NCBI GenBank assembly: GCA_963669155.1
Contig: OZ022583.1
Coordinates: forward strand, 4,850,658-4,914,657
DNA: 64,000 nt
Source of the DNA: Arbacia lixula
Taxonomy: Eukaryota > Echinodermata > Echinoidea > Arbacioida > Arbaciidae
Direction: 5' to 3'
Shown: positions 37,229-63,110 of the stretch, in pieces
Numbering within the stretch: the stretch's first letter is position 1
Layout of the letters: each line of letters begins with the position of its first letter
Position numbers and translations under genes: made by a program
The notes under the pieces: model-generated
Told to the model about the DNA's origin: nothing
Seen by the model: only the letters and a program-made list of their open reading frames with translations
Database searches by the model: none

Positions 37229-38001
37229 ATGGCCAACCCGACATCGAGCATCCAGCTATCATTGCCCAAGTCGACCTCCAAGTACTCTCGGCGTCGGCGT
37301 CCAACTGTGTTTAGCGGCTATCAGCTGGCAGTTTTGGGAGCCGAGTTCAACGTCAACCAGTACCCTGGTATCTTTACAAGAGAACGGCTGGCCGAGAGTC
37401 TACAACTCAGCGATCACGTAATACTGGTACGTTAATTACAATGACTATTTCCTCGATACCATAATACTATTAAAATTAAACATACATTATGTAAGTACTG
37501 GTTGACATTTATTTCTAACACAAACTTACTTTTCTTCTTTCATCCTTTCTTTCAACTCAGAACTGGTTCCAAAACCGTCGTTCACGTCTTCGACGAGCTG
37601 CCCTCAAGTCACTCTCATCTCGGTCATCCACCGTGGAGGACGTAACTAGCATCAGTCGAAAGCGTCAATCTCCATGCCACGCCGATGACATCGAGCCGTC
37701 GACACCACCCAGCAAGAGGCTCGCTGGTATTTCTCCAGCTCTGTCTGTGGACTATCTTTCGTGTAGCAGTACATCGACGTGGCATTCATCAACGCCACAA
37801 TCGTGCTTCCAGCGGATACCATCACCTGATTCGCATAGCGCCACCACCAGTCCGCTGATGTCGGTAGACTTTCTCTCTCGTAGCAGCCGCTCCCCTTCTC
37901 CTCCGTTGACATCCAGCTACAGAGTGGGGAGTCTCCACGGCACACCGTCATCGTTCTACGGATTGCTTGGACACCCGTACACCTACGTCTCGTACTTCTG
38001 A
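37229..38001 (+). CDS. pmar1: A1: paired-class homeobox gene, pmar1/micro1/hbox12 family
   Basis: Two exons, 37229-37426 and 37561-38001, give 212 residues; the ATG has A at -3 and G at +4. Residues 21-80 form a homeodomain (F8, YP at 25-26, WFQNRR at 48-53, Gln50), and the intron falls between homeodomain codons 46 and 47, as is usual for the paired class. Positions 46-47 are Leu-Asn rather than Gln-Val. The N-terminal SIQLSLP resembles an eh1 repressor motif. Two serine-rich repeats, SVDYLSCSS (128-136) and SVDFLSRSS (167-175), and a YTYVSYF C-terminus follow. Pmar1/Micro1 is a repressor that triggers micromere fate by silencing another repressor; that role is known for the family and inferred here. 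ATTAAA at 38100 is a likely poly(A) signal. Confidence 0.85.
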
Positions 38002-39846: not shown

Positions 39847-40470
39847 ATGTCGATGCAAAGGAGGCCTGTTCTCCCGGCACGGAGACCGCTGCGCCTCCCG
39901 TTGCAGACGGCTTTTACTAAGTCACAGCTTGAGACTCTCGAAGCTGAATTCAGAAGGGACCAGTACCCCGATATCAAGACGAGAGACCGACTAGCAGGTT
40001 CCCTCAGACTCAACAACTTAATCATTCATGTAAGCAGAGATTTGATTTAATCTCACCAAGTTTCCTCTTATTCTTTGAGATGAAGAATCAAATATTTAGT
40101 ACTTAAAATAAAATGATGTTTCCACGTTATTTACGATTTTGTATCTATTTTCCTCATGTAATTTTAGATATGGTTCCAGAAACGTCGAAAATCTTCAGGT
40201 TCCATCGAACAGTCTACACACCCATCTATGTCCATTGGCCGTCCTTCACCCAGCAGTCCGTCGACAACCCAAGTAGTACCGTCATCGCCACCCGCATCAT
40301 TCTCGCCGGGCGCCACCACCAGTCCGCTGATGTCGGTAGAGTTTCTCTCTCGTAGCAGCCGCTCCCCTTCTCCGTTTCCATCCAGTCACAGAGTGGGGAG
40401 TCTCCACGACACACCGTCATCGTCCTACGCATCGCTTAGTCACGCCTACACCTACGTCTCGTACTTCTGA
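39847..40470 (+). CDS. B1: short pmar1-like homeobox gene with Lys51 homeodomain
   Basis: Exons 39847-40029 and 40168-40470 give 161 residues. The homeodomain (residues 16-75) keeps F8, the YP pair, LAGSL and WFQ, but helix 3 reads IWFQKRRKS: the near-invariant Asn51 that reads the TAAT adenine is Lys, and Arg5 is Gln. The basic stretch after helix 3 is cut short. The C-terminal part keeps only one serine-rich repeat (SVEFLSRSS, 117-125) and ends YTYVSYF like A and C. The N-terminal eh1-like motif of A and C is absent. The frame and splice sites are intact in all four B copies, so this is a maintained sub-family, either with altered or lost DNA binding or acting by protein contact. It could correspond to a described phb/pmar1 paralog; I cannot assign which. 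Confidence 0.75.
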
Positions 40471-41118
40471 TCCTGTATAGCTCGATCGAACCATGGACCC
40501 TACCACGAATGATCGAACTTTTAAAATCTTGATGCTCTGATTTTGTTCCATTGAAGTTGATCTTAATACGTGATGGTAATGTGGATTAAACTACTATTGC
40601 ATATCTAAATCGGGTTCTCCAAAGTACATTCTTTGTGTTTGTTACTTAATGTGTGGGTCATGAGAAATGTGTAAGTGCAGATATAGATGATAATGAGAGA
40701 AGGATGTTGTTTCAAGAAAGATAAAGTAATTACACGCCTTCGCACATACACACTAAGTTTGAAAACAATATTTCATCAAACTTCTTTCTTTCACTTCAAA
40801 AAGTATTTGTCTCTTCGTCTGTATGCCACACACACACACACACACATACTCTCTCTGTCGTTATCTCTCTCTTATTCCTTCTTTCCTCTCTCCCTCTCTC
40901 CCACTACGTCTTCATCTGTTTATATGTCTTTTCTCTCCTTTTCTCCGTCTCTGTCTCTGTCTCTCTCTCCCTCTCTCTGTTTCACGCCATAACGTCACAC
41001 ACATACTCACTTTGTCGTTCTATCTCTCCTGCCCCCACCTTCCCGCCACACATACACACAAAAAGCACACACATACACACATATATAATTATATATACAC
41101 ACACATAAACACACATAA

Positions 41119-41182
41119 AGCACACCGTCATCGTTCCACGCATCGCTTAGTCACGCCAACACCTATACGTCTCGTACTTTTG
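41119..41182 (+). pseudogene. Orphan copy of the exon-2 3' end
   Basis: Matches the end of the B/C exon 2 (CACACCGTCATCGTTC, CATCGCTTAGTCACGCC, CGTCTCGTACTTTTGATCCT). An indel breaks the frame relative to the gene. It is preceded by a CACATAAAGCACACC junction, not by homeobox sequence. Confidence 0.75.
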
Positions 41183-41507
41183 ATCCTGTCATAATTATCA
41201 ATTGCAAGTTGTTGTTGTTTTTTTTTGCTTAGTACCATGAGCAATATGTGCGAGTGCAAATAAACATGGTCATGAGCAGGAATATTGTTATCGCAATGTG
41301 GAATTATCATACAACGTCGCACAGACATGTACAGTATAATGCACATGGGCACAGTATTCGTCAAACATGCTTTCTTCCCTTTGTTTAACTTCGAATTACA
41401 TTTTCCTCTTTATATATCTCTCCCCTTTAGTTTATTTGCCTTTAACACCACCTTCTCACTGAACTAGAAAGAACCACTTCTCCCCTTATTTCTGTCTTGC
41501 CCCCTCC

Positions 41508-41518
<11 letters not shown>

Positions 41519-41566
<48 letters not shown>
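41519..41566 (+). repeat. (TC)24 microsatellite
   Basis: Uninterrupted TC repeats after a C-run. Confidence 0.9.
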
Positions 41567-41568
<2 letters not shown>

Positions 41569-42050
41569 CATGACAATATGGGTGAAAATTCACGTATGTC
41601 TTCCCCGCTCTCATTACCCGATTCGGTAGAGTCTATAGCCTAACGAACCACGCATTGTGATAACCAATGATTGACAACTTGCAAACACTTTTCAAATCTT
41701 GACAGAGTGATCATTATATTAATTATTCTAAACATTTGAAAAACGATTACTAGGTGGGTATGGTCATGATATTACGATCACTGTAAATGTTCTGTAGATT
41801 TGAAAGAGCCATAACCATGATCAGCAACCAATAACACGCACTACTAATCTAATAATGAGTCATTAAAGAATGCATTGAGAAACGGTGCTCACTTGACTAA
41901 TTATTTAAACGAATTGAAAAGACAGAATATCCTTAAGATTAATAGCAGTATTCACTTAAGTTTGTTTAAATGATCTGAAAGAACCTTCACCAAACAATAA
42001 AACAGACCGGCCCCTTAAAGAGACACATTCAATCTACTCTTCTGCTCGCA

Positions 42051-42363
42051 TCACTTGGGCGGAAGTTTCTAAGAGACACCGCTGGCAAACGGTTTAGTAC
42101 CGCCGCGGCGTCTTCTTGATTAAAAGGAATCAGACGCGCTTCTTTTGTTCCTTCAATCTCATAATCTCATTGGCTTAAGGGATTGCCCAACCAGGGAGTT
42201 GGAAGCAGGAGAACTGACAGAGTTTAAAGAAGACTTCTAAACTGTTTTCAGCTATTCCTAATCATTCGACATTAGCTGTTCAATAATTAAACACACTCTT
42301 TCACGCTTAATCGAGCAGTATCGAGATTAGAATTCAGACTTATTTAACCAGTCAAAAAATACG
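42051..42363 (+). promoter_or_regulatory. C1 promoter region
   Basis: Holds GGCGGAAGTTTCTAAGAGAC, GTACCGCCGCGGCGTCTTCT, TTGATTAAAAGGAATCAGAC, TCTCATTGGCTTAAGGGATT and TCCTAATCATTCGACATTAG, in the same order and spacing as upstream of A1. The C2 promoter (50480-50804) is nearly identical. Confidence 0.5.
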
Positions 42364-43490
42364 ATGGCCAACTTGATGTCGATCACCCACCTACCATTGC
42401 CCAAATCGACCTTCAAGCGGCCTCTGCGTCGACGTGCAACAGTGTTTAGCGAATATCAACTCGATGTTCTGGAGACCGAGTTTAACGTCAACCAGTACCC
42501 TGGCATCGCTACACGAGAACGGCTGGCTGACAGTCTACAACTCGGAGAAGACAGAATTCAGGTACAAATTTAGAGATCACCTTTACACGGTGAACCGCTA
42601 TGTGCTGTAAACCGGTAACCAAAGTGCAGAATATGTTTCCAAATACTACATTAAAATCGGGGATACTCCTTTTTTGAAAAAAAAAATAGACGTCTGGCTA
42701 AGTCAACATAGCATTTCCCGGTAACATTTCTTGATTATGACTGGCACTTCATAAAAAAAAAAAAAACACTACCCTCCATTCGGAAATGCGCAGTGGGCGT
42801 GGTCAAAACCTAATTTACATTAGGAGCGTACTAGGAGAGCATTCTGGAATACCAATTTATGCTCTCCTAGGCGCCTTCAAACTTGGGGATTTTGAAGAAA
42901 AGTTAGGAGGGATTTCGGAATACCTCCCCCCCACCCCCTACACACACACAGTTTGCTGCCGAATTTAACATGATAATTTAACGACAGTCCCTCACATTAC
43001 GATTTGTTCACGTTCGTTAACGTAAGCTTATTGCTCGTCTTCCCCAACACAGGTCTGGTTCCAAAACCGTCGTTCACGTCTTCGACGAGCTTCCCTCAAG
43101 TCTCTCTCATCTCGATCATCCCGTAAGGACGACATCACTAGCGTCAGTCGAAAGCGGCGATCTCCGTGCGACATTGATGGTATCGAGCAGTCGACACCGC
43201 CCAGCAAGAAGTCCGCTGTCGTTTCTCCAGCCATGTCTGTGGACTTGCTTTCTCGCAGTAGTCGATCGACATCGCATCCATCAACGCCATCATCCTCCCT
43301 TCAAATGGCGTCATCCACGGAAACGCAAAGCGCCACCATCAGTCCGCTGATGTCGGTAGAGTTTCTCTCTCGTAGCAGCCGCTCCCCTTCTCCGTTCACA
43401 TCCAGTTACAGAGTGGGGAGTCTCCAAGGCACACCGTCATCGTTCTACGCATCGCTTAGTCACGCCTACACCTACGTCTCGTACTTTTGA
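42364..43490 (+). CDS. pmar1: C1: paired-class homeobox gene, pmar1/micro1/hbox12 family
   Basis: Exons 42364-42561 and 43053-43490 give 211 residues. The homeodomain (21-80) has the canonical recognition helix RIQVWFQNRRSRLRR with Val47, Gln50 and Asn51, so this is the sub-family with the most standard DNA-binding residues. The N-terminal SITHLPLP is eh1-like. Serine-rich repeats are SVDLLSRSS (128-136) and SVEFLSRSS (167-175), then YTYVSYF. The 491-base intron carries a TTAGGAG-type interspersed repeat (about 42770-42930). The last ~170 coding bases are almost identical to those of the B genes, while the upstream half of exon 2 is C-specific. ATTAAA at 43580 is a likely poly(A) signal. Orthology with pmar1 versus a sister paralog is not settled. 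Confidence 0.82.
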
Positions 43491-43824
43491 TCCTGCATAG
43501 CTCAATCGCACCTTTGACCCTGCCACGAATGATCGAACTTTTGAAATCTGATTTTGTTCCATTGAAGATGGTGATGTGAATTAAACTTTTATTGCATATC
43601 TGAGTTGTTTTTTTCTATGTAAATTCATTTGTGTTAGTTACTTAATGTGTGAGTCATGGATATAATATGTAAGTGCAGATATAAACGATAATGAGAGAAG
43701 GATGTTTCAAGATGAAGTAATAACACGCCTTCACACATAGACACTAGGTTTGAAATTGATATTTCATCAACATTCTTTCTTTTCTTCTTCCACTTCGAAT
43801 CGTACATTTCTCTTCATCTGCATG

Positions 43825-43868
<44 letters not shown>

Positions 43869-45217
43869 CCTCTTCTGTCAGTTATCTCTCTCTTGTTCCT
43901 TCCTTTTCCCCTCCCCCTCACCCATTACGTCTTCATCTGCCTATATCTCTTTTCTCTCCTTTTGTCTTTCTGTCTCTTTCTCTGTGTCTCTCTCCCTCTC
44001 CCTCTCTCTGTTTCACGCCATAACGGCACACTCATACTCTCTCTCTCTCTCTCTCTCTCTGTCGTTATCTTTCTCTTGCTCATTCATCCCTCTTCGCCAC
44101 ACACACACACACGCACACACCCACACACACACACATACACACATACACACTCTCTCTCTCTCTGTCGTTGTCTCCTTCATCTACCCCACACACAAACACA
44201 CACTCTCCCTCTCTCTGTTTCACGCCATAACGTTACACTCTTTCTTTTTCCCCTCTTTCAAATCTTTGAGAGGTGACATCTCTCCATCTACCAGCAGAAA
44301 ATATATCTATCTGCCTACTGTTCTATTTATCCCTCCACCTTCTTTACTTTCTATTGGAATCTTTCTTGATATATCTCCCTATATATCTGTTTATCCACAT
44401 ATACATGCACATATTGTATATATCGATCGATCAATCTATCTACATGTATCTGTATTTATGTTGGAAAGTGTCTATGTTGTACCATGTGTAGATATATCAA
44501 TCTGTATAACTCCCTAAACGAGTACTATAGATCTGTATGTCTATACCAGTATAAGTATGGATACAAATAATTAAGATATATACCAGTGTGATCTGTATTT
44601 ATTAATGTCTTTCTTGTCAGATTCAGCAACATGAATCGTTAAGTCGGTTGTATTCATTCACAACGTTTCATTCCTATTAGAATGTGGACAACTTGGAGAT
44701 TTGACAAAGTGATCAATAAACTAGTTATTCTTAAAAAGTTGAAAGAATTACTGCTAAAGGAATATCCGCAACATTAATATCGGTGATCATTGAAGTAAAT
44801 GATATCATGGTTTGAAAGAGCTCTCATTTAACAATGGTACGCACCGCCCCTTTAACGACGAGTCGTTCAATCTATTCTTCGGTTCTCATTGCTTTGTCAA
44901 AGGTTTCTCAACAAGACCGCTTCAAAAAGGTTGAATACCGTCTTCCTTACAAAAAGGAAAGCGATCGCGCGTCTATTGTCGCTTCCGTCTACTAATGTCA
45001 TTGGCTGAACGGATTAACCAATCACAAAGCTTCGATCAGGATGACCATGAGCGTTACAAGACAACTCATTAACTGTTTATAATTAATCCTAATCATTCGA
45101 CTTTAGCTGTTCAACTAGCAAGCATACATGTTAGTCATCTTAACGCATAATCCAGCAGTATACATACTAGCTCTTGAACCATTCAATCAGCTTTCACGGT
45201 GAAAGTCAAAGAAGACG
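43491..45217. other. C1-A2 spacer and A2 promoter
   Basis: CA repeats at about 43825-43866 and 44098-44148 and CT tracts, then 'TTTGAGAGGTGACATCTCTC' (about 44266), which is shared with the C2 and B3 downstream regions. From 44840 the A2 promoter begins: GGTACGCACCGCCCCTTTAA, GCTTTGTCAAAGGTTTCTCA, CATTGGCTGAACGGATTAAC and TTAATCCTAATCATTCGACT. GGATTA and TAATCC are Otx-type cores and CTTTGTC/TCAAAGG Tcf-like cores. Long open frames here are CA/TC low-complexity translations. Confidence 0.55.
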
Positions 45218-45996
45218 ATGGCCAACCCGACATCAAGCATCCAGCTATCATTGCCCAAGTCGACCTACAAGCACTCTCGGCGTCGGCGTCCAACTGTGTT
45301 TAGCGGGTATCAGTTGGCAGTTTTGGAAGCCAAATTCAACGTCAACCAGTACCCTGACATCTTTACACGAGAACGGCTGGCCGAGAGTCTACAACTCAGC
45401 GATTACGTAATACTGGTACGTTAATTACAATGACTATTTCCTCGGTACCCAAATACTGTCAACATTAAACATACCTGTACATTATTAAAGAACTGGTTGA
45501 CATTTATTTCTAACACAAACTTACCTTTCTTCTTTCATCCTTTCTTTCAACTCAGAACTGGTTCCAAAACCGTCGTTCACGTCTTCGACGAGCTGCCCTC
45601 AAGTCACTCTCATCTCGGTCATCCACCGTGGAGGACATCACTAGCATCAGTCGAAAGCGTCAATCTCCATGCCACGCCGATGACATCGAGCCGTCGACAC
45701 CACCCAGCAAGAGGCTCGCTGGTATTTCCCCAGCTCTGTCTGTGGACTATCTTTCGTGCAGCAGTACATCGACGTGGCATTCATCAACGCCACAATCGTG
45801 CTTCCAGCGGATACCATCACCTGATTCACATAGCGCCACCACCAGTCCGCTGATGTCGGTAGACTTTCTCTCTCGTAGCAGCCGCTCCCCTTCTCCTCCG
45901 TTGACCTCCAGCTACAGAGTGGGGAGTCTCCACGGCACACCGCCATCGTTCTATGCATTGCTTGAACACCCGTACACCTACGTCTCGTACTTCTGA
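45218..45996 (+). CDS. pmar1: A2: paired-class homeobox gene, pmar1/micro1/hbox12 family
   Basis: Exons 45218-45415 and 45556-45996 give 212 residues, the same lengths as A1. The homeodomain differs from A1 by a handful of residues (for example VLEAKF, YPDIF, LSDYVIL) and keeps Leu46-Asn47, Gln50 and Asn51. Both serine-rich repeats and YTYVSYF are present. Intron and flanks align with A1 over their full length, so A1 and A2 are recent duplicates about 8.0 kb apart. Confidence 0.85.
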
Positions 45997-47823
45997 TCGT
46001 GCACGGCACTTACTGAACTTGAAGAAATATTGGGGCCATCATATGTGGTTTTTTCTCAAATATACACGTTACACTAACAGTGATGTATCTATGTTGATTA
46101 AAGTGATGTTGCACATTACATGATATCGTCGATGTGACTTTGATTTCTGTCTGTAGTTTACTTATCTATTTGCAAGTCTGGTGAGTGTTGGCAATGAGCA
46201 TGATGAGTGAAGAAAAAGAGCTATATGAGCGACGTAATTATGTTCAAGGGAAAGCTTTCATATCCATTAATATTCCCTTTCTCGTTAAAATACCCTTTTC
46301 GCTGATAAACTTCTCTTTTTCGTAACCATCTTTTCCTTCTCGCATAAAATATGTTGTCTCCGCTTTTTCTGTCTATTACTTTATCTACAAAGTGATCTTC
46401 TCTTACAGACTCTTTTCTCCCCCCTCTGTCTTTCATTCTCTTTCTCTCTCCCACACACCTTCACAGTTTTATACAACCATGAAGACACACATATATACAC
46501 ACGTTTCTCCCTCTTTTAGTCTTCTTTCCATTTACTTTGTCTTTTCTGATGCTACATGTATATTCCTTTTCCGCTATAGTATATGTACCTTTGTCTGCAT
46601 ACTTTCTTTGCATGTACATCTTCCTATCTATCTACGTATACTACCTTTCTCTCTCTCGCTTATAAACATTATACAACTTCTATCTCTCCCTTTATAAAGA
46701 GACCAAAAAACACACACTCTTTCTTATCACTTTCCTCTTTTCTGGAAGTAATTATTTGAGGCATCTCGATTAAGCACCAAACAATGTCGTAATGTGAAGG
46801 GGAAAAGTAATCAATGATCCTCTCTGTCTATCTTCCTCCTTCTGTCCCTTTATCTCTGCCTATTTGTATGTGTACCTTATCATACCCCAGTCTCTCTTTA
46901 TGTCTATCCATACATCTGTCAATGTACCCTAACGCTACTAAACACCCCACCCCTTAAAACAAATAAAAGTGAATAAATTGATAGGAATAACTGAATAAAG
47001 ATATAAATTACTAAACAAACAAACACATCCAAAGCTGGATAAACTGGCTCCGATATGTTGCTACGTTTCACTGTCTCCGTCATAAGTACAGAAACCCTCA
47101 AAGATATATTAGTACACATGTACATAGTTACACGTACATGAGTCAAACTAGAAGATAATAAGTAAAGTTCGCTTCGTGGACTAATGACTTGATACTCAAA
47201 ATTCTCATAATTACTTAGTGTCTATTTTTCTCTTGCTGAGACTAGTAAGAGGATATACACTGCAGATAGATATCTTGCTTAATTCATATTTTGTAAAAAG
47301 AAGAAATTTCGGTCCCACTGATTGACAGATCCGTCAAAAGTGAGGAAGATCTGATCTAGCGATCACTGGGCTATTTATCCTACAAAGAATGAAAGGGCGA
47401 TCGTAAAGCTGAAAGAATGTCCTAAAGATTTGACCGGACTTTCATCCAACAATGAGACGCAGCGCACCAATCACAACGCGTCGTTTAATCTATTCATTGG
47501 TTTGCAGCAGATTACCGCACGGTTCTGAAAGAAACCGCCGCGGCAGTCAAACGGCGCACCGCAGTACTCGTTGATCAAAAGAATGCTTTCCGCTCTTCTA
47601 TTGATCTTCATTCTCTAAATCTGATTCGCTACAACTATCAGCCAATAACGAATTTTCGCAAACAATTTAGAAGCGTTTTAAGTGGATATTTAGGACATTG
47701 CTCCAAGAACATCACTAATCTTGGCCATCGTTTTTAAGTCTCTCCCGCTCTGCAACGCATCAAGCTAAATCGAACGCCGTTATATCAGACCCGTCGTTTA
47801 ATTCATATTGTAGATCAATCGCG
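45997..47823. other. A2-B2 spacer and B2 promoter
   Basis: Aligns with the A1-B1 spacer and then with the B1 promoter (block at about 47435-47600: 'TATTCATTGGTTTGCAGCAG', CCGCCGCGGCAGTCAAACGG, CGTTGATCAAAAGAATGC). Just before the ATG a 16-base segment present in B1 (GCCACAACATCTTAT) is missing. No other gene. Confidence 0.65.
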
Positions 47824-48442
47824 ATGTCGATGCAAAGGAGAACGCTGCGTCTCCCGTTGCAGACGGCTTTCACCAAGTCACAGCTTGAGACTCTCGAAGC
47901 TGAATTCAGAAGAGACCAGTACCCCGATATCAAGACGAGAGACCGACTAGCAGGTTCCCTCAGACTCAACAACTTAATCATTCATGTAAGCAGAGATTTG
48001 ATTTAATCTCATCAAGCTTCCTCTTATTCCTCTTTCCTCTTATTCTTTGAGATGAAGAATCAAATATTTAGTGCTTTAAATAAAGTGATGTTTCAACATT
48101 ATTTACGATTTTGTATTTATTATCCTCCTGTAATTTTAGATCTGGTTCCAGAAACGTCGAAAATCTCCAGGTGACATCGAGCAGTCGACACACCCATCCA
48201 TGTCCATTGACCGTCCTTCACTCAGCAGTTGGTCAACAACCCAAGTAGTACCGTCATCGCCACCCGCATCATTCTCGCCAGGCGCCACCACCAGTCCGTT
48301 GATGTCGGTAGAGTTTCTCTCTCGTAGCAGCCGCTCCCCTTCTCCGTTTACATCCAGTTACAGAGTAGGGAGTCTCCACGGCACACCGTCATCGTTCTAC
48401 GCATCGCTTAGTCACGCATACACCTACGTCTCGTACTTCTGA
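47824..48442 (+). CDS. B2: short pmar1-like homeobox gene, Lys51, N-terminal deletion
   Basis: Exons 47824-47985 and 48140-48442 give 154 residues. It matches B1 but lacks seven codons near the N-terminus (PVLPARR in B1), an in-frame loss just ahead of the homeodomain. Helix 3 reads IWFQKRRKSPG with Lys51. One serine-rich repeat and YTYVSYF follow. Splice sites and frame are intact. Confidence 0.75.
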
Positions 48443-50480
48443 TCCTGCATAGCTCAAATGAACCATGGACCCTACCACGAATGATCGAACTTTTGAAATC
48501 TTAATGCTATGATTTCGTTCCATTGAAGTTGATCTTAATACGTGATGGTAACGTGGATTAAACTGCTATTGCATATCTGAATTGGGTTTTTTTATGTAAA
48601 TTCTTTTTGTTTGTTACTTAATGTGTGGGTCATGAGAAATGTGTAAGTGCAGATATAGATGATAATGAGAGAAGGGTGTTGTTTCAAGAAAGATAAAGTA
48701 ATCACACGCCTTCACACATATACACTAAGTTTGAAAACAATATTTCATCAAACTTCTTTCTTTCTTTCACTTCAAATCGTACCTGTCTCTTCATCTGTAT
48801 GCCACACACACACACACACATACTCTCTCTGTCGTTATCTCTCTCTTATTCCTTCTTTCCTTTCTCCCTTTCTCCCACTACGTCTTCATCTGTCTGTATG
48901 TCTTTTCTCTCCTTTTCTTTCTCTGTCTCTGTCTCACACACATACTCACTTTGTCGTTATATCTCTCCTGCCCCCACCTTCCCGCCACACATACACACAA
49001 AAAACACACACAAAAAACACAAACATATATACACACACATAAACACACATAAAGCACACCGTCATCGTTCCACGCATCGCTTAGTCACGCATACACCTAC
49101 GTCTCGTACTTCTGATCCTGCATAGCTCAATTGAACCATGGACCCTACCACGAATGATCGAACTTTTGAAATCTTAATGCTATGATTTTGTTCCATTGAA
49201 GTTGATCTTAATACGTGATGGTAACGTGGATTAAACTGCTATTGCATATCTGAATTGGGTTTTTTTATGTAAATTCTTTTTGTTTGTTACTTAATGTGTG
49301 GGTCATGAGAAATGTGTAAGTGCAGATATAGATGATAATGAGAGAAGGGTGTTGTTTCAAGAAAGATAAAGTAATCACACGCCTTCACACATATACACTA
49401 AGTTTGAAATTAATATTTCATTCAACTTCTTTCTTTCTTTCTTTCACTTCAAATCGTACCTTTCTCTGTCTCTGTCTCTGTGTCTCTCTCCCTCTCTCTG
49501 TTTCACGCCATAACGTCACACACATACTCAATTTGTCGTTATATCTCTCCTGCCCCCACCTTCCCGCCACACATACACACAAAAAAAGCACACACATACA
49601 CACATATATAATTATATATACACACACATAAACACACATAAAGCACACCGTCATCGTTCCACGCATCGCTTAGTCACGCCTACACTTATACGTCTCGTAC
49701 TTTTGATCCTGTCATAATTATCAATTGCAAGTTTTTTTTTTGCTTAGTACCATGAGCAATATGTGCGAGTGCAAATATGCATGGTCATGAGCAGGAATAT
49801 TGTTATCTCACTGTGGAATTATCATACAACGTCGCACAGACATGTACAGTATAATGCACATGGACACAGTATTCGTCAAACATTCTTTCTTCCCTTTTTT
49901 TAACTTCGAATTACATTTTCCTCTTTATATATCTCCCCCCTTTAGTTTATTTGCCTTTAACACAACCTTCTCCCCTTATTTCTGTCTAGCGCCCCCCCCC
50001 CCCCCTCACTCTCTCTCTCTCTCTGGCCATGACAATATGGGTGAAAAATTCACGTATGTCTTCCCCGCTCTCATTAGCCGAGTCGGTAGAGTCTATAGCC
50101 TAACGAACCACGCATTGTGATAACCCGTGATTGACAACTTGCAAACACTTTTCAAATCTTGACAGAGTGATCATTATATTAATTATTCTAAACAGTTGAA
50201 AAACGAGCCAGGTGGGTATGGTCATGATATTACGATCACTGTAGATGTTTTGCAGATTTGAAAGAGCCATAACCATAATCAGCATCCAGTTACACGCACT
50301 ACTAATCTAATAATGAGTCATTAAAGAGTGCATTGAGAAACGGTACTCACTTGACTAATTATTCAAACGAATTGAAAAGACAGAATATCCCTAAGATTAA
50401 GAGCAGCGTTCACTAAAGTTTGTTTAAATGATCTGAAAGAACCTTCACCAAACAATAAAACAGACCGGCCCCTTAAAAAG
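48443..50480. other. B2-C2 spacer with tandem-duplicated 3' end
   Basis: The end of B2 exon 2 plus its 3' UTR is repeated: the segment starting 'CACACCGTCATCGTTC' at 48383 recurs at 49056 and again, shorter, at about 49646. Each copy carries the stop and the GATCCTGCATAGCTCAA 3' UTR start or part of it. Between them are CA and CT microsatellites. This explains why B2-C2 spacing exceeds B1-C1 by about 0.46 kb. Confidence 0.7.
49056..49114 (+). pseudogene. Orphan copy of the exon-2 3' end (B2 duplication)
   Basis: CACACCGTCATCGTTCCACG, then GTCACGCATACACCTACGTC and GTACTTCTGATCCTGCATAG, nearly identical to the end of B2. It is preceded by CACATAAAG, not by coding sequence. A second orphan lies at 49646-49706. 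Confidence 0.75.
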
Positions 50481-50804
50481 GCACATTCAATCTACTCTTC
50501 AGTTCACTTCACCTGGGCGGAAGTTTCTAAGAGACACCGCTGGCAAACGGTTTAGTACCGCCGCGGCGTCTTCTTGATTAAAAAGAATCAGACGCGCTTC
50601 TTTTGTTCCTTCAATCTCATAATCTCATTGGCCAACCAGGGAGTTGGAAGCAGGAGAACTGACAGAGTTTAAAGAAGACTTCTTAACTGTTTTCAGCTAT
50701 TCCTAGTCATTCGACATTAGCTGTTCAATAATTAAACACACTCTTTCACGCTTAATCGAGCAGTATCGAGATAAGCAATCAGACTTATTTAACCAAAAAA
50801 TACT
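50481..50804 (+). promoter_or_regulatory. C2 promoter region
   Basis: Nearly identical to the C1 promoter, with GTACCGCCGCGGCGTCTTCT and TTGATTAAAAAGAATCAGAC. It has lost about 17 bases after TCTCATTGG (the CTTAAGGGATTGCCC segment of C1). Confidence 0.5.
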
Positions 50805-51934
50805 ATGGCCAACTTGATGTCGATCACCCACCTATCATTGCCCAAATCGACCTTCAAGCGGCCTCTGCGGCGACGTGCAACAGTGTTTAGCGAATATCAA
50901 CTCGATGTTCTGGAGACCGAGTTTAACGTCAACCAGTACCCTGGCATCGCTACACGAGAACGGCTGGCTGACAGTCTACAACTCGGAGAAGACAGAATTC
51001 AGGTACAAATTTAGAGATCACCTTTACACGGCGAACCGGTGCTGCAAACCGGTAACCAAAGTGCAGAATATGTTTCCAAATGTGGCATTAAGATCGGGGA
51101 TACTCCCCTTTCAAAAAAAAAACGACGTCTGGCTAAATCAACATAGCATTTCCCGGTAATATTTCTTGATTGTAATTGGCACTTCATAAAAAAAAATATA
51201 AAAAAACACTACCCTCCATTGGTTCGGAAATGCGCAGTGGGCGTGGTCAAAACCTAATTTACAATAGGAGCGTACTAGGAAAGCATTCTGGAATACTCGT
51301 TTATGCTCTCCTAGGCGCCCCAAAACTTGGGGAGTTTGAAGAAAAGTTAGGATGGATTTCGGAATGCCTCCCCCCCCCCCCCTACACACCAACAGTTTGC
51401 TGCCGAAGTTAACATTATAATTTGACGACAGTCCCTCACATTGCGATTTGTTCACGTTCGTTAACGTAAGCTTATTGCTCGTCTTCCCCAACACAGGTCT
51501 GGTTTCAAAACCGTCGTTCACGTCTTCGACGAGCTTCCCTCAAGTCTCTCTCATCTCAATCATCCCGCAAGGACGACATCACTAGCGTCAGTCGAAAACG
51601 GCGATCTCCGTGCGACATTGATGGAATCGAGCAGTCGACATCGCCCAGCAAGAAGTCCGCTGTCGTTTCTCCAGTGATGTCTGTGGACTTTCTTTCTCGC
51701 AGTAGTCGATCGTCATCGCATCCATCAACGCCATCATCCTCCCTTCAAATGGCGTCATCCACGGAAACGCAAAGCGCCACCATCAATCCGCTGATGTCGG
51801 TAGAGTTTCTCTCTCGTAGCAGCCACTCCCCTTCTCCGTTTACATCCAGTTACAGAGTGGGGAGTCTCCACGGCACACCGTCATCGTTCTACGCATCGCT
51901 TAGTCACGCCTACACCTACGTCTCGTACTTTTGA
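50805..51934 (+). CDS. pmar1: C2: paired-class homeobox gene, pmar1/micro1/hbox12 family
   Basis: Exons 50805-51002 and 51497-51934 give 211 residues, the same as C1, with RIQVWFQNRR and both serine-rich repeats (SVDFLSRSS, SVEFLSRSS). Exon 1 differs from C1 at very few codons (LPLPKS to LSLPKS at the eh1-like motif). The intron carries the same interspersed repeat as C1, so the insertion predates the C1/C2 duplication. Confidence 0.82.
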
Positions 51935-52826
51935 TCCTGCATAGCTCAATCGAACCTTGGATCCTGCCACGAATGATCGAACTTTTGAAATCTGATTTTT
52001 TTTTTTCCATTGAAGTTGATCTTAACTCGTGATGGTAATGCGGATTAAACTGCTATTGCATATCTGAATTGGGTTTCCTATGTAAATTCTTTGTGTTTGT
52101 TACTTAATGTGTGAGTCATGGGATAAATGTAAGTGCAGATATAAACGATAATGAGAGAAGGATGTTGTTTCAAGATGAAGTAATAACACGCCTTCACACA
52201 TACACACTAGGTTTGAAATTGATATTGCATGAACATTCTTTCTTTTTTTCTTTCACTTCGAATCGTACCTGTCTCTTCATCTGCATGCCACACACATACA
52301 CACACACACACACACACACAAACTCACTCTTCTGTCAGTTATCTCTCTCTTGTTCCTTCCTTTTCCCCTCCCCCTCACCCATTACGTCTTCATCTGTCTA
52401 TATCTCTTTTCTCTCCTTTTGTCTTTCTGTCTCTTTCTCTGTGTCTCTTTCCCTCTCCCTCTCTCTGTTTCACGCCATAACGGCACACACATACTCTCTC
52501 TCTGTCGTTATCTCGCTCTTTCTCATTCATCCCCCTTCGCCACACACACACACACGCACACACTCACACACACATACACACATACACTCTCTCTCTCTGT
52601 CGTTGTCTCCTTCATCTACCCCACACACAAACACACACTCTCCCTCTCTCTGTTTCACGCCATAACGTTACACACATACTCTCTCTCTCTTGCTCATTCA
52701 TCCGCCTTTGCCACACACACACACACACGCGCGCGCGCGCAAACACACATACGCACACACGAACAGACAATTCTAATCTTGTCCCGGTTGATTTGTTGTT
52801 TTATTTGTTGTTATTTATTAATTGTT

Positions 52827-52867
<41 letters not shown>

Positions 52868-54907
52868 ATCTCCATTTACACTATTTGTATATGCCTCGCT
52901 TTCCAGGTCTATTTCTTTATCTATCCATCCATCGCTCCATCTACACATTACAAATCTATTGCTCTATTTGTCTACTCAGTATTGGATTTCTTCTTCGAGT
53001 TTCATTCTTTCTCTCCTTTTCTGTCACTCTTTCCCCGGAGCGCTCCTTCTTTCTTAAGCCCTCTTTTGTATAAAACACGTCTCTTTGTTCATTCCAATAA
53101 TGATTGTATATCAAGTGTTTCTCTCTTTCTTTACCTCCCCTTCCAAATATTTGAGAGGTGACATCTTTCCATCTACCAGCAAAAATGTATCTATCTGCCG
53201 ACTCTTCTATATATCTACCCATCTTCTTCACTTTTCCATTTGAAACTTTCTTGCTATATATATCCCTATATATGCGTTTATTAACATATCCATATACCCC
53301 CTAAAAATAGTAAAGTGAAAAAATAGATAATAATGAATGAATAAACAAACAAATATCAGAAAACATCAATCCTGCCAGCGCTGATATGCTAAAAGCTGGG
53401 ATAAACTGGCTCTGATAAAAAGCTACGCTTCACTGTCTCCATCATAAGTACAGAAACCCTCAAAGATATATTAGTATATATAGTTACACGTACATGAGTC
53501 AAACTCAAGCTGGTGGATAATGAGTAAAGTTCACATCGTCGACTAATGACTAAAAAATCTGACAATTAATCAGTGTATATTTTCCTCTTGCCGAGACTAG
53601 TAAGAGGATATACACTGCAGATAGATATTTTTATTAATTTATGTTTTGTAAAAAGAAGAAATTTCGGTCCCACTGATTGACAGATCTGTCAAAAGTGATG
53701 AAAATCTGATCGAGCGATCACTGGGCTATTTATTCTACCATGGACCTATCATGGATGGACTGCGCTCGGATAGACTTCCTTTGATCTATGAGGTCCGCCG
53801 CCTCATAACAATTCAAGACATTCAAGTGTTTTAAACAATTAGCTGTATTTCTAATTAGGTAGTGCCTTCCTCTGAATAATAAAAGACAATCTGTTTTGAG
53901 AAGCATGTCAACCGTTCAGCCTTCGCTGGGAGCTCGTAGCTGATCTATTTACACACACTGTGAATTAGTTTTGGGGTGAGCGAAGGGGAATTTTGAAAAA
54001 ACTTGTAGAAAGAATTTGGTCCGTAACTTTTCCGGACACCTCCGCACACGAAATTGAGATTGTTTCCATGAAAGATTAAACACTCAATAAACAATTTACA
54101 AGATATTTTTAAGGAAATATGATTCGGAAATGTGCGATATGGAGGCATTTCTCTGGCATGTTTTCTACAGTATTCTCCTTTTATCACAAAAACGAAGCAA
54201 CAATATAATCTGAAATTCACAGAATCGTATCTTTATAAGATGTAATACTTTTGCACATGCACTTCAGTTCATGAAGTGGTTCTGAAATCTTCTGCGCATA
54301 CAGAATATATATTCCTCAAAATGCATCCTACATTTTGTCATGCTTGTTTGGCGGCGGATCTCCCTCGATCAAAGAGCCAAACGCGTCAAATATTCCATTG
54401 TGATATCAATGCACGCGACTGCTGTAGGAATAAATTACACTTCGTGCTGACTCCATTCCTTACACCTCTCTGGTTGAAAGAATGTCCTAAAGATTTGACC
54501 GGACTTTCATCCAACAATGACACGCAGCGCACCAATAACAACGCGTCGTTTAATCTATTCATTGGTTTGCAGCAGATTACCGCACGGTTCTGAAAGACAC
54601 CGCCGCGGCAGTCAAACGGCGCACCGCAGAACTCGTTGATCAAAAGAATGCTTTCCGCTCTTCTATTGATCTTCATTCTCTAAATCTGATTCGCTACAAC
54701 TATTAGCCAATAACGACTTATTTTCGCAAACTATTTAGAAGCGTCATAAGTGGATCTCTAGGATATTGCTCCCAGGACATCACTAATCTTGGCCATCGTT
54801 TTTAAGTCTCTCCCGCTCTGCAACGCATCAAGCTAAATCGAACGCCGTTATATCAGACCCGTCGTTTAATTCATATTGTAGATCAACAGCCACATCATCT
54901 TATCGCG
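51935..54907. other. C2-B3 spacer, hybrid of C and A downstream flanks, with insertion and B3 promoter
   Basis: Starts as C-type 3' flank with CA/CT/GC microsatellites (about 52287-52322, 52716-52741, 52836-52864) to about 53280. It then continues like the region downstream of A genes (AGCTGGGATAAACTGGCTCT at about 53394), with no A gene between. At about 53739-54475 roughly 735 bases not found in other B flanks replace a short segment. The B3 promoter block follows at 54476-54907. Confidence 0.6.
53739..54475. other. ~735-bp unique insertion upstream of B3
   Basis: Between TATTTATTCTAC and TGAAAGAATGTCCTAAAGAT the other B genes have about 26 bases; here there are about 735. I find no clear terminal repeats and no long open frame with recognisable protein. 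Confidence 0.6.
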
Positions 54908-55547
54908 ATGTCGATGCAAAGGAGGCCTGTTCTCCCGGCAAGGAGACCGCTGCACCTCCCGTTACAGACGGCTTTTACTAAGTCACAGCTTGAGACTCTC
55001 GAAGCTGAATTCAGAATAGACCAATACCCCAATATCAAGACGAGAGACCGACTAGCAGGTTCCCTCAGACTCAACAACTTAATCATTCATGTAAGCAGAG
55101 ATTTAATTTAATCTCATCAAGCTTCCTCTTATTCCTCTTTCCTCTTATTCTTTAGTTTGAAGAATCAGATATTTAGTGCTTTAAATAAAACGATGTTTCA
55201 ACATTATTTACGAGTTTGTATCTATTATCCTCCTGTAATTTTAGATCTGGTTCCAGAAACGTCGAAAATCTCCAGGTGACATCGAGCAGTCGACACACCC
55301 ATCAATGTCCATTGGCCGTCCTTCACCCAGCAGTCGGTCGACAACCCAAGTAGTACCGTCATCGCCACCCGCATCATTCTCGCCGGGCGCCACCACCAGT
55401 CCGCTGATGTCGGTAGAGTTTCTCTCTCGTAGCAGCCGCTCCCCTTCTCCGTTTACATCCAGTTACAGAGTGGGGAGTCTCCACGGCACACCGTCATCGT
55501 TCTCCGCATCGCTTAGTCACGCCTACACCTACGTCTCGTACTTCTGA
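54908..55547 (+). CDS. B3: short pmar1-like homeobox gene with Lys51 homeodomain
   Basis: Exons 54908-55090 and 55245-55547 give 161 residues. Same structure as B1. The homeodomain has minor changes (FRIDQYPNIKTRDRL), and helix 3 is IWFQKRRKSPG with Lys51. The downstream flank switches to C-type sequence after the 3' UTR, so the C gene expected next is missing. Confidence 0.75.
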
Positions 55548-56140
55548 TCCTGCATAGCTCAACGAACCATGGACCCTACCACGAATGATCGAACTTTTGA
55601 AATCTTAATGCTATGATTTTGTTCCATTGAAGTTGATCTTAATACGTGATGGTAATGTGAATTAAACTGCTATTTCAAATCTGAATTGGGTTTTCCTATG
55701 TAAACTCTTTGTGTTTGTTACTTAATGTGTGGGTCATGAGGAATGTGTAAGTGCAGATATAGATGACAATGAGAGAAGGATGTCGTTTCAAGAAAGATAA
55801 AGTAATAACACGCCTTCGCACATACACACTGAGTTTGAAATCAATATTTCATTAAACTTCTTTCTTTCTTTCACTTCAAATCGTACCTGTCTCTTCATTT
55901 ATATCCCATACACACACTCTCTCTCTGTCGTTGTCTCTCTCTTATTCCCTCTTTCCTCTCTCCCTCTCTCCCATTACGTCTTTATCATGTTTATCTGTCT
56001 ATATCTGTTTTCTCCCCTTTTCTGTCTCTGTCTCTGTGTCTCTCTTCCTTTCCCTCTCCCTGTTTCACGCCATAACGTCACACACATGCTCTCTGACGTT
56101 ATCTCTCTCTTGCTCATTCACCCCCCTTCGCCACGCACAC

Positions 56141-56145
<5 letters not shown>

Positions 56146-56206
<61 letters not shown>
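56146..56206 (+). repeat. (AC)n microsatellite, ~61 bp
   Basis: AC repeat with a single CG interruption near the start. Confidence 0.9.
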
Positions 56207-56208
<2 letters not shown>

Positions 56209-57016
56209 ACAGACAATTTTAATCTTGTTCAGGTTGATTTGTTGTTGTATTAAGCGTTGTATCCCCTCTCCCTATTTCATCTCCATTTACACTATTTGTA
56301 TATGCCTAGCTTTCCACCTACTTCTTTATCTATCCATCCGTCGCTCCATCTAAATACTACAAACCTATTGCTCTATCTATCTACTGAGTATTGCATTTCT
56401 CCTTCGTGTTTTATTCTTTCATCCCTTTTCTGTTTCTCTTTTCCCGGAGCGCCCTCTTTTGTATTTAAGATGTATCTTTGTTCATTCCAGTAATGATTGT
56501 ATATCAAGTGTATCTCTCTTTCTTTCTCCCCTCTTTCAAATCTTTGAGAGGTGACACCTCTCCATCTACCAGGAGAAAATATATCTATCTGCCTACTGTT
56601 CTATTTATCCCTATACTGTACATATCGATCGATCGGTCAACCTATCTGTGTTGATGTTGGAAAGTGTCTATGTTGTATGATGTGCAGATATATCAATCAG
56701 TATAACTCCCTATAACTAGTACTATAGATCTGTATGTTTATACCAGTATAAGTATGGATACAAATAATTAAGATATATACCAGTGTGATCTGTATTTATT
56801 AATGTCTTTCTTGTCAGATTAAGCAACATGAACCGTTGAGTCGGTTGTATTCATTCACAACGTTTCGTTCCTATTAGGTTGTGGACAACTTGGAGATTTG
56901 ACAAAGTGATCACTATTCTAAAAAGTTGAAAGAATTACTGCTAAACGAATATCCGCAAGATTAATATCGGTGATCATTGAAGTAAATGATAATGGTTTGA
57001 AAGAGCTCTCATTTAA

Positions 57017-57535
57017 AGATTGTCCGTCCCTTTTGCAAGCTTAAAATTTGAAATCGTCTATCGCGATCGTAAATTGAAGAAAGTGTGATTCAAGACCATT
57101 TTTAAGAATATAGCATGTTGAAGCTTTCTGTATATGTAAAAAATTTCAGCCGTTAAATTTCAAACCGACTTTTTTCGTACTACGAAAAAAGTATTAGTCT
57201 TTGTTACAGTATCTATGTGGTTATTATGGGTGTGTGAAATGCTAATTTTATGAGTAACTACCAAACTTTGGAGATGATTCCTACCATAGAACATTTTTTT
57301 CATAATGTGATTTATAATTTAATAACCAGATTAATCAATAAAGCAGATATTTCAACACAAACTGCTAAGAGCCTGAGGTAAAGACTATTAATCAGACGTT
57401 GTTTGCGTGCATTATTTGAATTTTACACTACGTATCAGTTTCAAATTGTGAATATAGAGCTTGCTAACACTTCTCTATATGTTTTGCCAATGTTTCGATG
57501 GTTTTGTGGTGATCTGAAAAAGGAACTGGCTGTCT
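57017..57535. mobile_element. 519-bp TTAA-flanked insertion upstream of A3
   Basis: A2 reads CTCATTTAACAATGG at this place. In A3 the TTAA is present on both sides of 519 extra bases (57013-57016 and 57536-57539). The ends AGATTGTCCGTCCC and GGAACTGGCTGTCT are weak inverted repeats (9 of 14). It contains the palindrome ACTTTTTTCGTACTACGAAA + AAAGT at about 57168-57192. TTAA duplication is typical of piggyBac-type elements. No transposase. Confidence 0.6.
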
Positions 57536-57925
57536 TTAACAATGGTACGCACCGCCCCTTTAACAACGAGTCGTTCAATCTATTCTTCGGTTCTCATTGC
57601 TTTGTCAAAAGTTTCTCAACGAGACCGCTTCCAAAAGGCTGAATACAGTCTTCCTTACCAAAAGGAAAGCGATCGCGCGTCTATTGTCGCTTCCGTCTAC
57701 CAATGTCATTGGCTGAACGGATTAACCAATCACAAAGCTTCGATCAGGATGACCATGAGCGTTACAAGGCAACTCCTTCACTGTTCCTAATTAATCCTAA
57801 TCATTCGACTTTAGCTGTTCAACTATCAAGCATACATGTTAGTCATCTTAACGCATAATCCAGCAGCATACAGACTAGCTCTTGAACTATTCAATCAGCT
57901 TTCACGGTGAAAGTCACAGAAGACG

Positions 57926-58695
57926 ATGGCCAACCCGACATCAAGCATCCAGCTATCATTGCCCAAGTCGACCTTCAAGCACTCTCAGCGTCGGCGTCCA
58001 ACTGTGTTTAGCGGGTATCAGTTGGCAGTTTTGGAGGCCGAGTTTAACGTCAACCAGTACCCTGACATCTTTACACGAGAACAGCTGGCCGAGAGTCTAC
58101 AACTCAACGATTACGTAATACTGGTACGTTAATTATAATTACTATTTCCTCGGTACTCATTCACTGTCAAAATTGAACATATATCATGAAATAACTGGTT
58201 GAGATTTATTTCTAACACAAACTTACCTTTCTTCTTTCATCCTTTCTTTCAACTCAGAACTGATTCCAAAACCGTCGTTCACGTCTTCGACGAGCTGCCC
58301 TCAAGTCACTCTCATCTGGGTCATCCACCGTGGAGGACATCACTAGCATCAGTCGAAAGCGTCAATCTCCATGCCACGCCGATGACATCGAGCCGTCGAC
58401 ACCACCCAGCAAGAAGCTTGCTGGTATTTCTCCAGCTCTGTCCGTGGACTATCGTTCGTGTAGCAGTACATTGACGTGGCATTTATCAACGCCACAATCG
58501 TACTTCCAGCGGACACCATCACCTGATTCGCATAGCGCCACCACCAGTGCGCTGATGTCGGTAGACTTTCTCTCTCGTAGCAGCCGATCCCCTTCTCCGT
58601 TGACCTCCAGTTACAGCGTGGCGAGTCTACACGGCACATCGTCATCGTTCTATGCATTGCTTGGACACCCGTACACCTACGTCTCGTACTTCTGA
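57926..58695 (+). pseudogene. pmar1: A3: pmar1-like homeobox gene with a nonsense codon at Trp48
   Basis: Exon 1 (57926-58123) and exon 2 (58258-58695) keep the A structure and splice sites, but exon 2 opens AAC TGA TTC CAA instead of AAC TGG TTC CAA. The invariant homeodomain Trp48 (residue 68) is therefore a stop, and translation would give a 67-residue product without helix 3. Downstream the frame is still open, with further drift: one codon lost, SVDYL changed to SVDYR, GTPSSF to GTSSSF. A single G-to-A change explains the stop. A read-through or an assembly error is possible but less likely given the other losses. Confidence 0.85.
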
Positions 58696-60566
58696 TCGTG
58701 CACGGACTTATTGAACTTGAAGAAATATTGGGGCCATCATATGTTGTTTTTTCCTCAAATATACACGTTACACTAACAGTGATGTATCTATGTTGATTAA
58801 AATGATGTTGCACATTACATGATATCGTCGATTTGAATTTGATTTCTGTCTGTTATTTACTTAACTATTTGCAAGTCTGGTGAGTGTTGGCAATGAGCAT
58901 GATAAGTGAAGAAAAATAGCTATATGAGCGGAGTAATTATGTTCAAGGGAAAGCTTTCATACCCATTAATATTCCCTTTCTCCTTAAAATACCCTTTTCG
59001 CTGATAAACTTTTTTTTCGTAACCATCTTTTCTTTCTCGCATACAATTTATGTTGTCTCCGCTTTTACTGTCTATTACTTTATCTATAACGCCATCTTCT
59101 CTTTCAGACTCCTTTCTCCCCCTCTGTCTTTCATTCTCTTTCTTTCTCCAAAACACCTCCACAGTTTTATACAACCATGAAAACACACATACATACATAC
59201 ACACATTTATCCCTCCTTTAGTCTTCTTTCTATTTACTTTGTCTTTTCTCATGCTACATGTATATTCCTTTTCCGCTATAGTATATGTAACTTTGTCTAC
59301 ATACTTTCTTTGCATGTGCATCTTCCTATTTATATACGTATACTAGGCCTACCTTTCTCTCTCTCGCTTATAAATTACACCACTTCTATCTCTCCTTTTA
59401 TTAAGAGACCAAAAACACACACTCTCTTTCTTATCACTTGCCTCTTTTCTGGAAGTAATTATTTGAGGCATCTCGATTAAGCACAAAGCAATGTCGTAAT
59501 GTGAAGGGGAAAAGTAATCAATGATCCTCTCTGTCTATCTTCCCCCTTGTGTCCCTTTATCTCTGCCTATTTGTATGTGTACCTTATCATACCCCAATCT
59601 CTCTTTCTGTCTATCCATACATCTGTCAATGTACCCTAACGCTACTAAACACCCCAGCCCCTAAAACAAATAAAAGTGAACAAATGGATAAGAATAACTG
59701 AATAAAGATATAAATAACTAAAACAAAAAACATCAAAAGCTGATAAGCTGGCTCCGATATATAGCTACATTTCACTGTCTCCATCATAAGTACATAAACC
59801 CTCAAAGATATATTAGTATACATGTACATAGTTACACGTACATCAGTCAAACTCAAACTAGTAATAAGATTATAAGTAAGTTCGCTTCGTCGACTAATGA
59901 CTTGATATTCAAAATTCTGATAAGTACTTAGTGTCTATTTTTCTCTTGCTGAGACTAGTAAGAGGATATACACTGCAGTTAGATATCTTTATTAATTCAT
60001 ATTTTGTAAAAAAAAAAAAAAAAAAAAAAACAACGGTCCAACTGATTGACAGATCCGTCAAAAGTGATGAAGATCTGACCGAGCGATCACTGGGCTATTT
60101 ATTCTACAAAGAATGAAAGGGCGATCGTTAAGCTGAAAGAATGTCCTACAGATTTGACCGGACTTTCATCCAACAATGAGACGCAGCGCACCAATAACAA
60201 CACGTCGTTTAATCTAGTCATTGGTTTGCAGCAGATTATCGCACGGTTCTGAAAGACACCGCCGCGGCTGTCAAACAGCGCACCGCAGTACTCGTTGATC
60301 AAAAGAATGCTGGCCGCTTTTCTATTGATCTTCATTCTCTAAATCTGATTCGCTACAACTATTAGCCAATAACGACTTATTTTCACAAACTATTTACAAG
60401 AGTTTCAAGTGGATCTCTAGGATATTGCTCCCAGAACATCACTAATCTTGGCCATCGTTTTTAAGTCTCTCCCGCTTTGCAAAGCAACAAGCTAAATCGA
60501 ACGCCGTTATATCAGACCCGTCATTTGATTCATATTGTACATCAACAGCCACAACATCTTATCGCG
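58696..60566. other. A3-B4 spacer and B4 promoter
   Basis: Aligns with the A1-B1 spacer, with a poly(A) run at 60008-60030. The B4 promoter block lies at about 60160-60566 (GACACCGCCGCGGCTGTCAA, CGTTGATCAAAAGAATGC). No gene. Confidence 0.65.
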
Positions 60567-61197
60567 ATGTCGATGCAAAGGAGGCCTGTTCTCCCGGCAC
60601 GGAGACCGCTGCTCCTCCCGTTACAGACAGATTTTACTAAGTCACAGCTTGAGACACTCGAAGCTGAATTCAGAAGGGACCAGTACCCCGATATCAAGAC
60701 GAGAGACCGACTAGCACTTTCCCTCGGACTCAACAACTTAATCATTCATGTGAGCAGAGATTCGATTTAATCGCATTAAGCTTCCAATCTCCTCGTTTTC
60801 TTTGCGATGAAGAATGAAGTATTTAGTGCTTTCATTGAAATGATGTTTCCACGTTATTTACGATTTTGTATCTTTTCTCCTCATGTAATTTTAGATCTGG
60901 TTCCAGAAACGTCGAAAATCTCCAGGTGACATCGAGCAGTCGACACACCCATCTATGTCCATTGGCCGTCCTTCACCCAGCAGTCGGTCGACAACCCAAG
61001 TAGTACCGTCATCGCCACCCGCATCATTCTCGCCGGGCGCCACCACCAGTCCGCTGATGTCGGTAGAGTTTCTCTCTCGTAGCAGCCGCTCCCCTTCTCC
61101 GTTTCCATCCAGTTACAGAGTGGGGAGTCTCCATGGCACACCGTCATCGTTCTACGCATCGCTTAGTCACGCCTACACCTACGTCTCGTACTTCTGA
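60567..61197 (+). CDS. B4: short pmar1-like homeobox gene with Lys51 homeodomain
   Basis: Exons 60567-60749 (donor GTGAGC) and 60895-61197 give 161 residues. Helix 3 is IWFQKRRKSPG with Lys51, as in the other B copies. Small changes (TDFTKSQLE, LALSLGLNN) leave the fold residues intact. One serine-rich repeat and YTYVSYF are present. Confidence 0.75.
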
Positions 61198-62825: not shown

Positions 62826-63110
62826 ATCATCCCGCAAGGACGACATCACTATAGAGTCAGTCGAAAGCGGCGATCTCCGTGCGACATTGATGGCATCGAG
62901 CAGTCGACACCGCCCAGCAAGAAGTCCGCTGTCGTTTCTCCAGCCATGTCTGTGGACTTGCTTTCTCGCAGTAGTCGATCGACATCGCATCCATCAACGC
63001 CACCACCCTCCCTTCAAATGACGTCACCCACGGAATCGCAAAGCGCCACCACCAGTCCGCTGATGTCGGTAGAGTTTCTCTCTCGTAGCAGAGACGGGGG
63101 ATGGACATGA
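62826..63110 (+). pseudogene. C3: C-type exon 2 fragment fused to a B promoter, no homeodomain
   Basis: From ATGATCATCCCGCAAGGACG the sequence matches C1/C2 exon 2 starting 25 codons after the splice site, so exon 1 and helix 3 are gone. It continues through SVDLLSRSS and SVEFLSRS, with a small insertion near the start (CACTATAGAGTCAG). It then leaves the family at AGACGGGGGATGGACATGA, losing the last third and YVSYF. If translated it would be a short serine-rich peptide. Confidence 0.8.

Follow-up and report, generated by a model that had tools for sequence, protein, structure and literature searches.

A window of 64,000 nucleotides from the sea urchin Arbacia lixula (C8:4850658-4914657) carries part of an array of homeobox genes of types A, B and C, and in the B type the homeodomain has lysine rather than asparagine at position 51 in every copy. 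Purifying selection maintains the reading frame of B. Going by gene anatomy and protein features, B is a divergent paralogue in an echinoid array of the hbox12/pmar1/micro1 type, the family having been matched by published descriptions. Its DNA binding has likely changed, judging from the residues replaced. The reading preferred here, at a probability of about 0.42, is that B would no longer read TAAT normally and would modulate the A/C repressors through the tail that they share. The four B genes of the window, B1 to B4, have two exons each, with a GT-AG intron between homeodomain positions 46 and 47, the usual site in PRD-class genes:

39847..40029, plus strand: B1 exon 1, from the start codon to homeodomain position 46; donor GTAAGC
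40168..40470, plus strand: B1 exon 2, opening IWFQKRR; codon 51 AAA at 40180-40182
47824..47985, plus strand: B2 exon 1
48140..48442, plus strand: B2 exon 2; codon 51 AAA at 48152-48154
54908..55090, plus strand: B3 exon 1
55245..55547, plus strand: B3 exon 2; codon 51 AAA at 55257-55259
60567..60749, plus strand: B4 exon 1; donor GTGAGC
60895..61197, plus strand: B4 exon 2; codon 51 AAA at 60907-60909

Exon 2 opens with IWFQKRR and codon 51 is AAA in all four genes; the same reading gives AAC in the three A and two C genes of the window. A Pfam search of the whole 607 Mb genome was carried out, and both homeobox blocks on C8 were fetched and gene-modelled. The homeobox exons cluster on the minus strand at 4.50-4.65 Mb and on the plus strand at 4.89-4.95 Mb, where 27 B, 17 A and 4 C genes with two exons are found along with one C/A chimera; B, the most numerous type, mostly alternates with A, and exon 2 pieces without exon 1 are also present. 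Intact genes number 25 of 27 for B, 12 of 17 for A and 4 of 4 for C, plus the chimera, and two B copies have a frameshift in exon 2, downstream of codon 51. A sequence-only reading of the window had reported Lys51 in B1 to B4 together with intact frames, splice sites and C-terminal motif; the gene models confirm this and extend the lysine to all 27 array copies, each of which reads WFQKRR. A DNA pattern for the B exon join gave 26 matches, all with AAA; the 27th copy, which falls outside the pattern, has a variant acceptor and again AAA. A degenerate B copy on contig C52 has AAA too, and B exon 2 remnants lie at C8:17440141 and C8:22036043. The invariance of one codon among recent copies is by itself statistically uninformative.

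Asn51 is reported to be invariant across 346 homeodomains analysed (PMC2211742) and kept in all cloned bovine PRD-like proteins described (PMC11542365). Within the A. lixula genome it was found in the eight best-scoring full-length homeodomains (L001-L008), and Arg5 in 20 of 20 exon-1 homeodomains picked among the matches split at position 46. B lacks the marks of a canonical DNA-binding homeodomain, namely Asn51 and Arg5 with a basic arm. The absence of Arg5, also pointed out in the sequence-only reading, holds for B (Gln5 in 24 of 24 copies) but is not peculiar to it, as A has Pro5 (12 of 12) and the C consensus Ala5. An isolated sister gene related to B (L031, C8:17445983-17447366), about 12.5 Mb from the array and with a long tail, has Arg51, and from this dispersed relative it appears that Asn51 was probably lost ahead of the B array expansion. 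The changes from AAC to AAA and from AAC to CGA are separate paths, however, so a common ancestor with a basic residue at 51 is not proven. No report of a Lys51 form of the hbox12/pmar1/micro1 family was found among titles and abstract openings, a scope that does not cover alignments in figures.

The B protein is about 161 residues long; it contains a recognisable homeodomain and a single serine-rich repeat, and the B-type sequence, typed as a composite, scored 53.9 bits against Pfam PF00046 (cut-off 22.9). Compared with the C consensus, the arm has L2 P3 Q5 in place of R2 R3 A5, and I44, H46, K51 and K54 replace R44, Q46, N51 and S54; basic residues have also gone at three further positions (S55 for R55, G57 for R57, D58 for R58). 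Y25, W48, F49, Q50, R52 and R53 are retained in the B consensus, and position 56 varies among copies. Helix 3 (42-55) has one nonsynonymous and four synonymous variants in 24 B copies, as against six and three in 12 A copies, fewer in B than its length predicts (p 0.008); the N/S (nonsynonymous to synonymous) contrast with the rest of the B homeodomain is suggestive at most (p 0.06). In the arm (1-7), nine nonsynonymous and three synonymous variants were counted in B, against none in A; the set of 13 DNA-contact positions is not specially conserved in B (seven nonsynonymous, three synonymous). On these counts the arm of B is free to vary and its helix 3 is constrained.

Such a homeodomain might still work by protein contact on DNA, with A or C joining B in PRD-type dimers of which B is the half-active member. 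Two points speak for pairing: palindromic sites can be bound by pairs of PRD-class homeodomains, and Ile28 is kept in 22 of 24 B copies (Met in two). Residues 42 and 43 of B (Asn, Leu), however, are unlike those of A and C, and cooperative pairing normally needs DNA contact by both units. Dimerisation of this kind is considered an unlikely mode of action.

Selection on the B frame was assessed in 24 intact copies, with variants classed against the consensus and the transition bias taken from introns. Over all codons there were 77 nonsynonymous and 61 synonymous variants, where neutrality predicts 2.68 to 1 (p 1.3e-5), and the variants common to at least two copies numbered 14 and 29 (p 4e-8). 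For the homeodomain only, the counts were 31 and 19 (p 0.04), with 7 and 10 shared (p 0.004). The N/S ratio in the true frame was 0.47 for exon 1 (p 0.005) and 0.49 for exon 2 (p 0.0009). None of 13 control readings (two wrong frames per exon; three each of intron, 400 bases upstream and 150 downstream) reached p<0.05, the lowest p being 0.08. The same pattern was found in A, with N/S of 0.44 and 0.46 and no control reading below p 0.11. Averaged over pairs of 26 B copies, sequence differences came to 0.044 and 0.036 for the two exons, 0.110 for the intron, 0.111 for the stretch from -500 to -100 and 0.112 for the 300 bases downstream. Gene conversion can distort such counts but should not yield a frame-specific deficit, so neutral evolution of B, checked here across the array copies, does not account for the data, and the proposal that B is maintained as a protein is supported.

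These results bear directly on the idea that B is a decaying family, passively amplified with its neighbours and not functional as a protein. The one named Lys51 precedent found, human SEBOX, a PRD-class protein with Lys51 and Trp53, is described as a suspected pseudogene (PMC2211742), and four broadly transcribed family members of P. lividus are reported to have premature stops, possibly sequencing artefacts (PMC5370098). SEBOX shares Lys51 with B but is not an amplified, selected family, and the frame-specific nonsynonymous deficit with clean controls, along with 25 of 27 copies intact, speaks against decay, which is considered unlikely. The last alternative, that the lysine arises from an error in the gene models or the assembly or from a different genetic code (AAA encodes Asn in echinoderm mitochondria), is very improbable, since a contig of 28.4 Mb carries the genes, which are hence nuclear, 27 copies concur while A and C copies give AAC in the same frame, and a GT-AG intron separates positions 46 and 47.

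As regards the family, hbox12/pmar1/micro1 genes of sea urchins are described as multi-copy, with two exons and one intron (PMC5370098), and their proteins as having two C-terminal serine-rich octapeptides (PMC4273433). The genes of the array have two exons and occur in many clustered copies, with a Q50 paired-like homeodomain near the N-terminus; the two octapeptide repeats, of eh1 type, are present in A and C but not in B. A and C therefore share the sea urchin anatomy, as compared by description, while B differs in its single repeat, Lys51, hydrophobic N-terminal arm and length of about 161 residues. Having one repeat, it is placed as a divergent array paralogue and not as a full member. 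The phb/pplx genes of sea stars, brittle stars and cidaroids are relatives of pmar1, and reports on sea stars state that no clear pmar1 was found there (PMC7719182, PMC4709884). Brittle star Pplx is described as having His50 and being without both eh1 motifs, and reportedly has no repressor action (PMC4709884); it is thus altered at residue 50 and B at 51. The brittle star phb genes are reported to be tandemly duplicated as well (PMC11310086), which weighs against a firm echinoid placing of the array. A starfish phbA primer (PMC8505446) matches in this genome only with two mismatches.

The tails of the B and C consensus proteins, taken from SPLMSV to the stop, match at all 49 residues, and their coding sequences differ by about one synonymous change (proportion of synonymous differences, pS, 0.03); for the two homeodomains, pS is 0.90 over positions 1-46, near synonymous saturation, and 0.51 over 47-57. 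The 3' flanks of one B and one C copy show about 75 to 97% similarity per 60-base block over several hundred bases. Given this similarity of tail and flank, exchange between the types seems to reach the tail; that the B homeodomain has stayed distinct could be due to selection or to too much divergence for exchange. In the upstream consensuses, A and C agree at 68% over 410 bases, and A and B are 75% alike in two stretches of 80 and 52 bases.

In the preferred reading, that of B as a modulator of A/C, the homeodomain fold would be kept and the protein would enter the nucleus, perhaps aided by KRRK (residues 51-54) as an import signal. By what is known of homeodomain structure, TAAT recognition would be abolished or altered once the adenine contact and the arm contacts are gone. 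B would be present in the same early embryonic cells as A and C and would compete with or tune these repressors, the simplest way being to take up the corepressor that they use. HOPX is a homeodomain-only protein with no repression tail. It is described as a transcriptional regulator with the homeodomain fold and no DNA binding (PMC9179269), whereas B may still bind DNA. Pmar1 and Hbox12 are reported to be repressors (PMC4709884, PMC4273433), and since B shares the tail of C and would do without ordinary DNA reading, it may be a competitor or a re-targeted partner. The earlier interpretation along these lines is supported in part, as to the maintained protein (N/S and clean controls). The wider proposal, that B is a built-in antagonist or re-targeted partner which lost Asn51 before the array expanded, retained a constrained helix 3 with a basic residue at 51 and bears the repression tail of the DNA-binding genes beside it, and that the copy number of B versus A/C sets the strength of an early embryonic repression switch, is less likely than not.

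Several observations weigh against B as such a modulator. It has one repeat, and A and C have two. The classical eh1 consensus has an aromatic first residue and an aliphatic last one. The B repeat, MSV[DE]FLS, is without both (cf. PMC1310626), so that corepressor binding is uncertain and Groucho binding hypothetical. The low variation of helix 3 in B would suit an active recognition helix and equally one that is folded but inert. Upstream, B is homologous to A in patches, and the comparison of upstream consensuses reported no homology to C. Lastly, the related Phb genes of sea stars are described as acting positively on hesC (PMC7719182), which means that repression is not certain for every relative.

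The other homeobox features of the window are as follows:

37229..38001, plus strand: A1, exons 37229-37426 and 37561-38001; NWFQNRR, two serine-rich repeats
42364..43490, plus strand: C1, exons 42364-42561 and 43053-43490; VWFQNRR, two repeats
45218..45996, plus strand: A2, exons 45218-45415 and 45556-45996
50805..51934, plus strand: C2, exons 50805-51002 and 51497-51934
57926..58695, plus strand: A3, exons 57926-58123 and 58258-58695; in-frame TGA at the homeodomain Trp48 codon (58258-58278)
62856..63089, plus strand: C exon 2 fragment without exon 1

Because of the stop at Trp48, A3 is probably a pseudogene. The A homeodomain consensus has Leu46 and Asn47 with Asn51 kept, an unusual recognition helix (window 37561, 45556). 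The chimera (L025, C8:4921175-4921879) joins a C-type exon 1 to an A-type exon 2 across a 69-base intron and is open throughout; in the account of P. lividus, by contrast, chimeric copies are given as not detected (PMC5370098). The plus strand shows marked negative GC skew over window positions 36001-64000, and alignment revealed CA- and CT-rich simple repeats 3' of the homeobox genes. On the plus strand, window positions 4275-21112 hold open stretches that encode TIL, VWD, C8 and fibronectin III domains and look like exons from one or several large extracellular proteins. Elsewhere in the genome, a bindin match (PF02084, 229 bits) was found on contig C14, with none in 14 control genomes, a control of little weight as these likewise gave none for the homeodomain; bindin is also present in sea stars, so the match indicates an echinoderm but not an echinoid in particular.

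Asn51 counts as the contact that defines a homeodomain, and a Lys51 family in 25 intact, selected copies, standing beside Asn51 relatives at one locus, is a natural test of a homeodomain without it. In P. lividus, copy number at such loci is reported to range from 6 to 22 in seven individuals, as determined by quantitative PCR (PMC5370098). If B tunes A/C, such copy-number variation would shift the balance between repressor and modulator at the top of a well-studied embryonic network.
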